A stretch of DNA of 64,000 nucleotides. Origin: an uncultured Eubacteriales bacterium (GTDB taxonomy: Bacteria; Bacillota; Clostridia; Christensenellales; CALVMC01). Below, piece after piece: positions 8,652 to 11,864 of the stretch. Made by a program: the position numbers and the translations under genes. The stretch is taken from NCBI GenBank assembly GCA_949296455.1, contig CASFOZ010000006.1, positions 1 through 64,000 on the forward strand, given 5' to 3'. How positions within the stretch are numbered: the stretch's first letter is position 1; the number at the start of each line of letters is the position of its first letter. The notes beneath the pieces were generated by a model. The model saw only the letters and a program-made list of their open reading frames with translations. It searched no databases and was not told the DNA's origin.

Positions 8652-8749
8652 AATTTCCCTTTTAAATTTAGTATTAGTTACTTTATAATAAATATTCTAA
8701 ACGAACATTTCTTTAAAGTCAATAAATATTTATATATATAGAGCAAATA

Positions 8750-8773
8750 AAAAAACGGCTTTCGCCGTTTTTT
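8750..8773 (-). terminator. rho-independent terminator of the TM2/kinase-like operon
   Basis: 10-bp stem AAAAAACGGC / GCCGTTTTTT with a four-base loop, directly after the stop of the TM2-like gene; the U run lies on the minus-strand transcript. Confidence 0.85.
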
Positions 8774-8776
8774 TAT

Positions 8777-9010
8777 TTAAGCAAGTAATTTTACTTTCTT
8801 ATAGATTATGATTGAAACGATATCGATAATCCAACCTATACCCAAAAAGCCGATTGTAATAATCCATATAATACCTATAAGGATTTTACCTTTACAGATA
8901 CGATAAATACCGTAGACAATAAAATCGAGAAAAATAACAAGAAGCAATTTGATAATGATATTAAAACTGTCTAAGGTTTTAACATAACTCGTTGAAAATT
9001 TGTCAGCCAT
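8777..9010 (-). CDS. small TM2-like membrane protein
   Basis: 77 residues with two predicted membrane segments (about 17-37 and 46-68). The second half, with GKILIGIIWIITIGFLGIGW and then IIDIVSI, resembles the C-terminal half of the TM2 domain (GI.QL.T.G..GIWW.ID). TM2 proteins are small hairpin membrane proteins with no established biochemical role. It has a very strong AGGAGG site seven bases before the ATG. It is the last gene of a unit after the two kinase-like genes (33-base gap) and before a terminator. Confidence 0.7.
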   Translation of the reverse strand: MADKFSTSYVKTLDSFNIIIKLLLVIFLDFIVYGIYRICKGKILIGIIWIITIGFLGIGWIIDIVSIIIYKKVKLLA

Positions 9011-9043: not shown

Positions 9044-9868
9044 TTATTTTACATGTATGAGAGTACAAGGAACGGAATTTTCAAGTATTTTCTTTATAGG
9101 ATATTTTGAATTTGCGATAATTATTCTCGTTCCGTTTTTGGCAGGCTCTTTGATATATTCGAGTTTAGCTTTAGCCCCTCCTGCACCTTTTCTGCTTGCG
9201 CCGTCGCAAAGAGTCTGAAAATGGGAAATATTTTCGATAAGTTCGTAAATATCCTTACCGCTGATTTCCTTTACGAGAGTATTTTTGTCTTTATGGTCGG
9301 AATAAATTCCGTCAACGCTCGTTAAAATAAGTAAGGTATGCGGTTTTAAAAGACAAGCTATCTGACTTGCTGTTTCGTCGTTATCGAGACAGTGGACGGG
9401 TTTGAAATTTTCTTTCGTGAGAGCGGAAATTTCCATTTTGACATTTTCCTCGTAACTTACAGCATCGTTGTAATTTATAATCGGGATAGCATTTTCCTTG
9501 GGACATCTTAGAAGCATTTTTCTTAAATATTCGAGTTTATTTTTATCGTTGAAATGCTGATGCTCTACAAGAATTTGTCTTAAACTGTAATTGGATTTTA
9601 CATAGGTTCTGTAAAGACTCATTAAAATAGATTGCCCTTGAGCTGCATAATCGGTTTTTATTTCCTCATCGGTTCCCGAAAGTTCTTTACCGTTTCTTTT
9701 AATATAATCTATTCTTCCTATTTCGGTAGCGCCGCTTGTAACCCAAACATACCCCGGTTTAAGTTCGGAAGAAAGGCGTGCAAGGATATTATAATCAATA
9801 TCGTTGTATTCGCTGTTTATAAGGGCCATTGAGCCGATTTTTCCCACAAGTTCAATATCGAAAGCCAT
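9044..9868 (-). CDS. amino-acid-kinase fold protein, glutamate 5-kinase-like
   Basis: 274 residues, the length of a ProB kinase domain without PUA. Blocks can be matched in order: VGKIGS (ATP phosphate loop, usually VKVGSS), VTSGATEIG (VSSGA), PIINYNDAVS (ProB PIINENDTVS, with Glu changed to Tyr), LDNDETASQIACLL (GDND.LSA..A), LTSVDGIYS (LSDVDGLY), GAGGAKAKLE (GTGGM.TKL). The fold is secure; the Glu-to-Tyr change in the glutamate-binding block suggests a different substrate or lost activity. No proA lies nearby. It starts one base after the stop of the shikimate-kinase-like gene, so the two proteins are made together. Proline synthesis is possible but not supported by context. Confidence 0.75.
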   Translation of the reverse strand: MAFDIELVGKIGSMALINSEYNDIDYNILARLSSELKPGYVWVTSGATEIGRIDYIKRNGKELSGTDEEIKTDYAAQGQSILMSLYRTYVKSNYSLRQILVEHQHFNDKNKLEYLRKMLLRCPKENAIPIINYNDAVSYEENVKMEISALTKENFKPVHCLDNDETASQIACLLKPHTLLILTSVDGIYSDHKDKNTLVKEISGKDIYELIENISHFQTLCDGASRKGAGGAKAKLEYIKEPAKNGTRIIIANSKYPIKKILENSVPCTLIHVK

Positions 9869-9869
9869 A

Positions 9870-10397
9870 TTAATTGTATCCTTTTATGTTTTTCACTTTT
9901 TGATAAACTTTTGACGCAATTTCAGTTGCATTAAAATTGTCGGCAGATAAAATCATATCGCAGTCTTTTTCAATATTTGATTCGATAGACCTATCTTTTG
10001 CGATATCTTTTTTTATTATATCCGAAAGGAAAAAACCGCTTTTTGCAATAAGTTTTTTTAAACTGCTGACTTTATAAGTAAGACCTACCGTAAAATAGTG
10101 TTCTTTAAGAGTCAGAATATTTTCTTCCTTTAAAGCAAGAGTCGGAGTAGTTTGCAGTATTGCTCCGTCGAAACCGGAAATATCTGATAAAGCTTTATAC
10201 TCTGTTTTCATATAGTGGCCGTCTCCGAAATGGTTTACAAAATCCTTAACCTTGTAATTATTTGTATACTCTATAAAATCGATAAGATTTAAAATTATGA
10301 CATTTTTCTCATCGCTCATTTTATCGAATAAAGCGTTTGCAGCTTCGAGAATATCCTCGTATACAGCTCCTAAAAAAGCAATATTGAGTTTTTCCAT
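9870..10397 (-). CDS. shikimate-kinase-like protein lacking the P-loop (probable pseudoenzyme)
   Basis: 175 residues, the size of shikimate kinase. Segments align by eye with AroK: N-terminal beta strand LNIAFLGA; DFIEYTNNYKVKDFVNHFGD resembling the D.EIE...G..V..IF...GE block; and a C-terminal CDMILSADNFNATEIASKV resembling the AD..I.T...S...VA end. The Walker A motif GxxxxGKS is absent (GAVYEDIL), the shikimate-binding arginine after GE is gone (GDGHYM), and the GGG loop is replaced by LQTTPT. It therefore should not bind ATP in the usual way. An extended -10 box (TGTTATAAT, minus strand, 10457-10465) lies 60 bases upstream. Family assignment is inference from residue pattern; confidence is moderate. 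Confidence 0.6.
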   Translation of the reverse strand: MEKLNIAFLGAVYEDILEAANALFDKMSDEKNVIILNLIDFIEYTNNYKVKDFVNHFGDGHYMKTEYKALSDISGFDGAILQTTPTLALKEENILTLKEHYFTVGLTYKVSSLKKLIAKSGFFLSDIIKKDIAKDRSIESNIEKDCDMILSADNFNATEIASKVYQKVKNIKGYN

Positions 10398-10492: not shown

Positions 10493-11710
10493 TTACAAAG
10501 ACGCAAAATTTAAACGAGTTAAATTGTAAATGAAATTCGAAAAAGCAAGATAAAAGTCTAATTTATCCAATTTTTCGATAACCGTATTTTCGTAATTGAC
10601 ACCCGTTGTCTTTTCTGTCGTAAAACTTCCGCCCGTATCGGTTACGGTATATATAATATCTCCTTGCAAGTCTGTTCTGTAAACATTAATATTTGCGTTT
10701 GAAAGAGCGGTTAATGTTTCTTCATGAGGGTGACCGTAAGAGTTTCCTGTTCCGCAGCTTATAACAGCCGATTCAACGGTAATATATTCCAGAAAATCCT
10801 GAGAACTGCTTGTTCGGCTTCCGTGGTGACCTACCTTCAAAAGGTCGCAGTCGTAAGGGGAAGAAATTTCTTTTATGAATTTTTCTTCGGTTTCTTTCGT
10901 TGCGTCGCCCGTTAAAACTATATCGTTGTTTTTAGTGGAAAGAATACAGATAGGCGATTCTCCGTTTTTTGTTTCAGCGTCGGAATTGTTGGAAATTGCG
11001 TTATAATAGTCTTCGCTTTGACAGAACATAGAAAACCTGTATCCTTCTCCCGTAATTTCTATATAGTTTGTATTGTAAATAATTTCGGCTTTTTTATCTT
11101 CCCCGTTTTCGCTGTAAACTTCGCTGTTTGCCAAGGTATAGAACTCGTAATACTGTTTAGTGCTTATTGCGCCTTTTACGGAAGCTGCGCCGTCAAGCCC
11201 GTAACTTGCGGTAAGCTTCGGCATAAATATATTTTTTATCTGAAAACTTTCTATAACCTTATCCAAAGAGCCTACATGGTCTGCGTCCGAATGAGTTAGA
11301 ATCATATAATCGAAAACCTGTATATTGAGTTCGTTTATATAACTTATTAAAGCGTCCGCAACTTCGCTGTCATAGTCGCCGCCGTCGATTATCATATTTC
11401 TGCCGTCGGGAAGACATATAACAATAGCGTCTCCTTGTCCGACATCTACAAAATGAACGCCGAGTTTCTTACCGTTCCCTATAACTGCAAGACTTTCGTT
11501 AAGCTGACTGAGATTTTCGGAAGTAGGAAAGGTATCGGATTTCGTGATAAGACCGCTTCCCGTTACAGCCGTTCCCGGCTGATAATTGCTGCCTCTTTCG
11601 GGCAATCCGTTGTTCTTGATATAAAAATATATACCTATGCAAATTGCAATCACAAGTATAAAAACTATTACTGCAGTAAATATCTTTGATTTTTTGGTTA
11701 ATTTTCTCAT
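10493..11710 (-). CDS. ComEC/Rec2-like metallo-beta-lactamase-fold protein, membrane-anchored
   Basis: 405 residues. An N-terminal membrane segment (about 11-31) anchors a metallo-beta-lactamase domain: FVDVGQGDA (88-96), MIIDGG (106-111), metal motif THSDADHVG (139-147), VLTGDA and VGHHGSRTS. These match the hydrolase domain of the competence protein ComEC, here detached from the transport channel. Such stand-alone proteins are common in Clostridia; a nuclease or phosphodiesterase acting outside the membrane is likely but unproven. No Shine-Dalgarno site precedes the ATG, and the -10 box lies exactly seven bases before it (see finding on leaderless start). Confidence 0.85.
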   Translation of the reverse strand: MRKLTKKSKIFTAVIVFILVIAICIGIYFYIKNNGLPERGSNYQPGTAVTGSGLITKSDTFPTSENLSQLNESLAVIGNGKKLGVHFVDVGQGDAIVICLPDGRNMIIDGGDYDSEVADALISYINELNIQVFDYMILTHSDADHVGSLDKVIESFQIKNIFMPKLTASYGLDGAASVKGAISTKQYYEFYTLANSEVYSENGEDKKAEIIYNTNYIEITGEGYRFSMFCQSEDYYNAISNNSDAETKNGESPICILSTKNNDIVLTGDATKETEEKFIKEISSPYDCDLLKVGHHGSRTSSSQDFLEYITVESAVISCGTGNSYGHPHEETLTALSNANINVYRTDLQGDIIYTVTDTGGSFTTEKTTGVNYENTVIEKLDKLDFYLAFSNFIYNLTRLNFASL

Positions 11711-11836: not shown

Positions 11837-11864
11837 AAAGACGCAGTTTATAAACTGCGTCTTT
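11837..11864 (-). terminator. rho-independent terminator of reverse rubrerythrin
   Basis: A perfect 28-base palindrome (14-bp arms, AAAGACGCAGTTTA and its complement) followed on the minus strand by a run of T, 16 bases after the rubrerythrin stop. Confidence 0.85.

Follow-up and report, generated by a model that had tools for sequence, protein, structure and literature searches.

Gene layout at the locus

Two genes on the minus strand of the window, by which the whole stretch of 64,000 nucleotides analysed is meant, lie one base apart, as an earlier note on this DNA had observed. The upstream gene, P0002 (9870–10397, 175 aa), encodes a shikimate kinase-derived protein without the P-loop or the substrate residues, and the downstream gene, P0001 (9044–9868, 274 aa), encodes a divergent amino acid kinase, proposed here to be a glutamate 5-kinase from a sister subfamily of ProB. 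At the junction (9865–9888, minus strand), an RBS-like AAAGGAT, which lies within the 3′ end of P0002 and some 9 bases before the P0001 start, is followed by the stop codon TAA, a single base, and the ATG of P0001 (TAA-T-ATG), an arrangement that suggests translational coupling. Comparison with the second species of the genus (L002) gave dN/dS values of 0.074 for P0002, over 44 synonymous differences, and 0.012 for P0001; both open reading frames are therefore genuine genes under purifying selection.

P0003 (8777–9010, minus strand), a gene for a small TM2-like membrane protein of 77 aa, begins 33 bases after P0001 and is probably co-transcribed with the pair, and a hairpin resembling an intrinsic terminator (8745–8778, minus strand; 15-pair stem, −18.9 kcal/mol, z −5.98) closes the transcript. 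The earlier note had placed a TM2 protein and then a terminator behind the kinase. The hairpin is indeed found after the membrane gene, and the membrane gene itself is present, but it scores 23.9 bits against TM2 (PF05154), below the gathering cut-off of 27.9, and falls outside positions 9044–10397, to which the note had assigned it. A homologue of P0003 was found only in L002, of the same genus, and the gene is not part of a conserved unit. Upstream of the pair lies a gene for a metallo-beta-lactamase-fold protein whose N terminus carries a hydrophobic segment (10493–11710, minus strand; PF00753, 55.3 bits). Between this gene and a rubrerythrin-like gene, the window carries a perfect 12-pair inverted repeat at 11837–11864 (AAAGACGCAGTT TATA AACTGCGTCTTT).

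The match of P0002 to the Pfam shikimate kinase family (SKI, PF01202) is 23.7 bits, above the gathering cut-off of 22.1. Compared with the intact AroKs of the order, P0002 lacks the P-loop GxxGxGK[ST] with its lysine, the F-R substrate arginine, the GGG loop, and the R-P lid arginine. Profile–profile comparison using hhalign aligned the P-loop-less proteins of nine loci with eleven intact shikimate kinases from the order over their full length at 98.7% probability. Other P-loop-less proteins in the set retain one or two shikimate-site residues, and identity between lineages is 13–21%. An AlphaFold2 model built from four sequences was too poor to use (pLDDT 39.7), and the fold of P0002 therefore rests on sequence profiles. 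A complete AroK is encoded elsewhere in the same genome, within an aromatic gene cluster. Judged from these alignments, P0002 is a derivative of shikimate kinase whose catalytic apparatus has been lost, together with the residues that serve ATP and shikimate binding in that enzyme. The shikimate kinase likeness that the earlier note proposed is thus borne out, as is the loss of Walker A, the shikimate-binding arginine, and the GGG loop, to which the lid arginine can be added.

The kinase and the glutamate 5-kinase family

Membership of P0001 in the amino acid kinase superfamily is clear from its match to AA_kinase (PF00696; 72.5 bits, gathering cut-off 24.9). The top NCBIfam model is proB (TIGR01027) at 81.3 bits, which is 105 bits short of the equivalog cut-off of 186 bits and leaves P0001 outside the curated ProB group; P5CS ranks next, and acetylglutamate kinase and isopentenyl phosphate kinase follow at about 30 bits. 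All 19 P0001 orthologues scanned also matched the proB model. An AlphaFold2 model of P0001 built from 19 sequences had a mean pLDDT of 86.6, and when it was compared with the PDB, the 18 best entries by Z were all glutamate 5-kinases or P5CS kinase domains (Z 21–25), with acetylglutamate kinase next in the ranking (Z 20). The alignment of P0001 stops with the kinase domain, and at 274 aa the protein has no PUA domain; this does not discriminate between the two types, because the standard ProBs of the order are open frames of 255–304 aa that are likewise too short for one.

Active-site positions were compared across 104 P0001-type sequences in Escherichia coli ProB numbering, using residue equivalences based on the alignment and on the 2J5T structure. 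Lys10, Gly12, Ser50, Gly51, Ala52, Gln80, Asn134, Asn136, Asp137, Asp148, Asn149, and Asp150 are invariant, and the equivalent of Lys217 is present in 103 of the 104 sequences, with a gap in the other. The residues on which a predicted glutamate 5-kinase function would depend (Lys10, Asp137, Asp148, Asn149, Asp150, and Lys217) are therefore retained. At the position of Glu135, all 104 sequences have Tyr, and the position of Asp170 is mostly Ser, changes that may alter the preference for substrate or nucleotide. In P0001 itself, the change to the substrate block amounts to this single Glu-to-Tyr replacement (NEND to NYND) together with a longer loop ahead of the DND motif. The description in the earlier note of a ProB-like protein with a changed substrate block agrees with these results, proB being the best model and the catalytic residues being kept. 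Paired lysines, Lys8 and Lys217, and Asp162 have been named as catalytic in the related acetylglutamate kinase (PMC2851564).

In a maximum likelihood tree rooted on four argB-like sequences from the order, which were picked by sequence inspection, the P0001 group is placed next to, rather than within, a clade containing both E. coli ProB and the standard ProBs of the order (support 93–100), a sister position that, given the long branches, could also arise from fast evolution. Both sequence and predicted structure place P0001 closest to glutamate 5-kinase. A literature search of limited reach returned nothing relevant on the P0001 subfamily, on proline synthesis or auxotrophy in Christensenella, or on non-orthologous ProB.

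Distribution and gene neighbourhood

Proline biosynthetic genes were surveyed in a sample of 161 genomes of the order. P0001-type kinases occur in 97 genomes and standard ProBs that pass the cut-off in 12, and the two never share a genome. ProA was found in 90 of the 97 genomes with the P0001 type, 11 of the 12 with standard ProB, and 5 of the 52 with neither kinase; the genome context of a glutamate 5-kinase, namely ProA present and no other ProB, is thus seen for P0001 (0 of 97 with standard ProB). Outside the ProB genomes, the association between the P0001 type and ProA has a Fisher p value of 2e-25, a value that ignores relatedness. P0001, ProA, and ProC occur together in 81 genomes and ProB, ProA, and ProC in 11, and 44 genomes have none of these genes. 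Both kinase types are found, in different genomes, within each of six families (f4, f9, f12, f14, f16, and f17), and in four families (f3, f4, f14, and f32) genomes without the whole set stand alongside genomes with it. With families mixed in both respects, the pattern does not reflect one ancestral event and arose more than once.

The exceptions are 7 of the 97 P0001-type genomes, in which no ProA was detected, and the 5 ProA genomes without either kinase, and not all of these are poor assemblies. Completeness is 70–83% for the four P0001 genomes in which both ProA and ProC are missing. Three others (G008, G029, and G097) contain ProA and ProC with neither kinase type, in assemblies that are 91–96% complete, and may represent either a third solution or an assembly gap; an amino acid kinase beside proA was looked for in G008 and G029, and none was found. 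ProC was not detected in the genome of the window itself. On contig C7 (L202) of that genome, the only ProC match, a weak one, resembles prephenate dehydrogenase and adjoins a prephenate dehydratase-like gene, and it was rejected as ProC on these grounds. Because a true ProC is present in the sister species, the missing gene is probably an assembly gap. Standard proB adjoins proA, by coordinates, in all 11 genomes with a ProA match; proA adjoins a P0001-type kinase in none of the neighbourhoods examined, including those of four genomes outside the order. Beyond the order the P0001 type is rare, occurring 4 times in a class-level sample, in two families.

The genes around the kinase vary. Of the 97 kinase genomes, about 7 have a P-loop-less gene ahead of the kinase; such genes were seen in the genus of the window, in L007 and L008, in four f6 genomes, and weakly in one f3 genome. 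Elsewhere in f6, four genomes have the metallo-beta-lactamase-fold gene directly adjoining the kinase, without a partner between them, and with or without an intervening gene it precedes the kinase in about 12 relatives (among them L005, L007, L008, L109, L114, L125, L128, L129, L131, and L136). Two f4 genomes have an intact shikimate kinase directly upstream (L186:2406–2921 and L173:3842–4348; gaps of 55 and 22 bases), with P-loop, GGG, and lid arginine all present. A type II 3-dehydroquinase gene (aroQ) overlaps or abuts the kinase start at L003:3207–3647 and L004:577–999 and in L107, L120, and L194, and the AroQ gene overlaps the kinase start in f24 genomes. In Christensenella sp. SUG1028, a Peptidase C26 (gamma-glutamyl hydrolase-like) gene lies 32 bases after the kinase (L005:6852–7610). 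The recurrence of aroK-like and aroQ genes next to the kinase raised the idea that it might act in the shikimate pathway; against such a role, shikimate kinase matches occur in 39 of 41 genomes regardless.

The kinase is constant while its neighbours change, and P0002–P0001 is not a conserved module. The earlier note had predicted a conserved unit of pseudokinase and kinase and had proposed a gene-neighbour survey to look for it. Similar P-loop-less genes do occur directly upstream in several relatives, but several close relatives have no partner, and the low frequency of the partner among the kinase genomes contradicts the prediction.

Proposed function and known counterparts

The most probable reading, to which we give a probability of about 0.85, is that P0001 is the unannotated glutamate 5-kinase of the order, its reaction being deduced from genome content. 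P0001 would phosphorylate the glutamate side-chain carboxylate with ATP, giving gamma-glutamyl phosphate, which would pass to the unlinked ProA and then, by way of ProC, to proline. The P0001 group would be a deeply diverged sister of standard ProB that has replaced it across this Clostridia order, so that a ProB-like subfamily not previously recognised probably fills the gap in the proline pathway. A kinase acting on some other substrate, such as another carboxylate destined for a ProA-like reductase, with the link to ProA and ProC reflecting general self-sufficiency in amino acids, seems improbable to us. The invariant change in the substrate block, the longer loop, and the lack of proA linkage would suit such an enzyme, and the 44 genomes that lack all these genes at once look as general auxotrophs would. 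General self-sufficiency does not, however, predict that the P0001 type and standard ProB never share a genome, and the 81 genomes with ProA and ProC would be left without a source of glutamyl phosphate. Shikimate kinase family matches in 39 of 41 genomes also indicate that loss does not simply extend across all pathways.

For P0002, the leading guess, held tentatively, is an optional binding partner that, in some lineages, would be translated just ahead of the kinase and would regulate or stabilise it; a small protein with such a role would be in line with both the coupling and the purifying selection. That P0002 is instead a decaying, functionless copy of shikimate kinase, placed beside the kinase by chance of gene order, we consider rather unlikely. 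Decay would account for the low identity between lineages, the varying loss of shikimate-binding residues, the absence of a P0002-like gene from many relatives, and the intact shikimate kinase in the same position in two genomes. It sits poorly with a dN/dS of 0.07 between two species over the 44 synonymous differences, with frames that are undisrupted in nine loci from several families, and with the consistent loss of the same motifs. The earlier note had proposed a new small-molecule sensor or synthesis module formed by the two proteins, and the close coupling in several families and the recurring upstream metallo-beta-lactamase-fold gene would be in keeping with one. No P0002-like gene accompanies the kinase in about 90 of the 97 genomes, and the distribution of the kinase follows proline synthesis and points to an ordinary enzyme of that pathway, which makes a dedicated module very improbable. 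A bolder version of the glutamate 5-kinase reading, which we regard as doubtful, makes P0001 a second, deeply separate lineage of the enzyme with its own control and P0002 its regulatory subunit, perhaps linking proline and aromatic synthesis. Such a link, for which gene order is the only hint, would have left its trace in the repeated occurrence of aroK, aroK-derived genes, and aroQ immediately ahead of the kinase.

Because the first enzyme scores below the annotation cut-off, genomes of this order would be interpreted as lacking the capacity to convert glutamate to proline. If the assignment of P0001 as a glutamate 5-kinase is right, 81 of the 161 sampled genomes gain a complete proline route, which alters the nutritional requirements predicted for common bacteria of the gut and rumen. 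The P0001 type would also give studies of feedback inhibition a naturally occurring ProB variant whose substrate block is altered, and P0001–P0002 is a candidate pairing of a metabolic kinase with a catalytically inactive relative of another, unrelated one.

Among known systems, P0001 most resembles ProB (TIGR01027; E. coli 2J5T and 2J5V) and the P5CS kinase domain, with which it shares the amino acid kinase fold (Z 25.3 for the top structural match), every checked active-site residue, a size near that of the PUA-less ProBs of the order, and co-occurrence with ProA and ProC. It differs from ProB in its identity of 25–30%, its score below the curated cut-off, Tyr for Glu135, a mostly Ser position 170 in place of Asp, the longer loop before DND, its position as sister to the ProB group, and the absence of any example found in a proBA operon. 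N-acetylglutamate kinase (ArgB) has the same fold and superfamily (Z 20), but its profile scores 29 bits against 81 for proB, and it forms a separate, long-branched group in the tree. P0002 aligns with AroK (PF01202) over its full length and passes the Pfam cut-off, whereas the P-loop lysine, substrate arginine, GGG, and lid arginine of AroK are missing from it. Plant SKL1 and SKL2 are shikimate kinase duplicates that have lost shikimate kinase activity and have been retained (PMC2593004). Unlike P0002, SKL1 has retained Walker B and most of the P-loop, and extra motifs or domains are present in both plant proteins (PMC2593004). Neither of the two is coupled with an amino acid kinase; what they have in common with P0002 is that all are retained derivatives of shikimate kinase, of separate origin.
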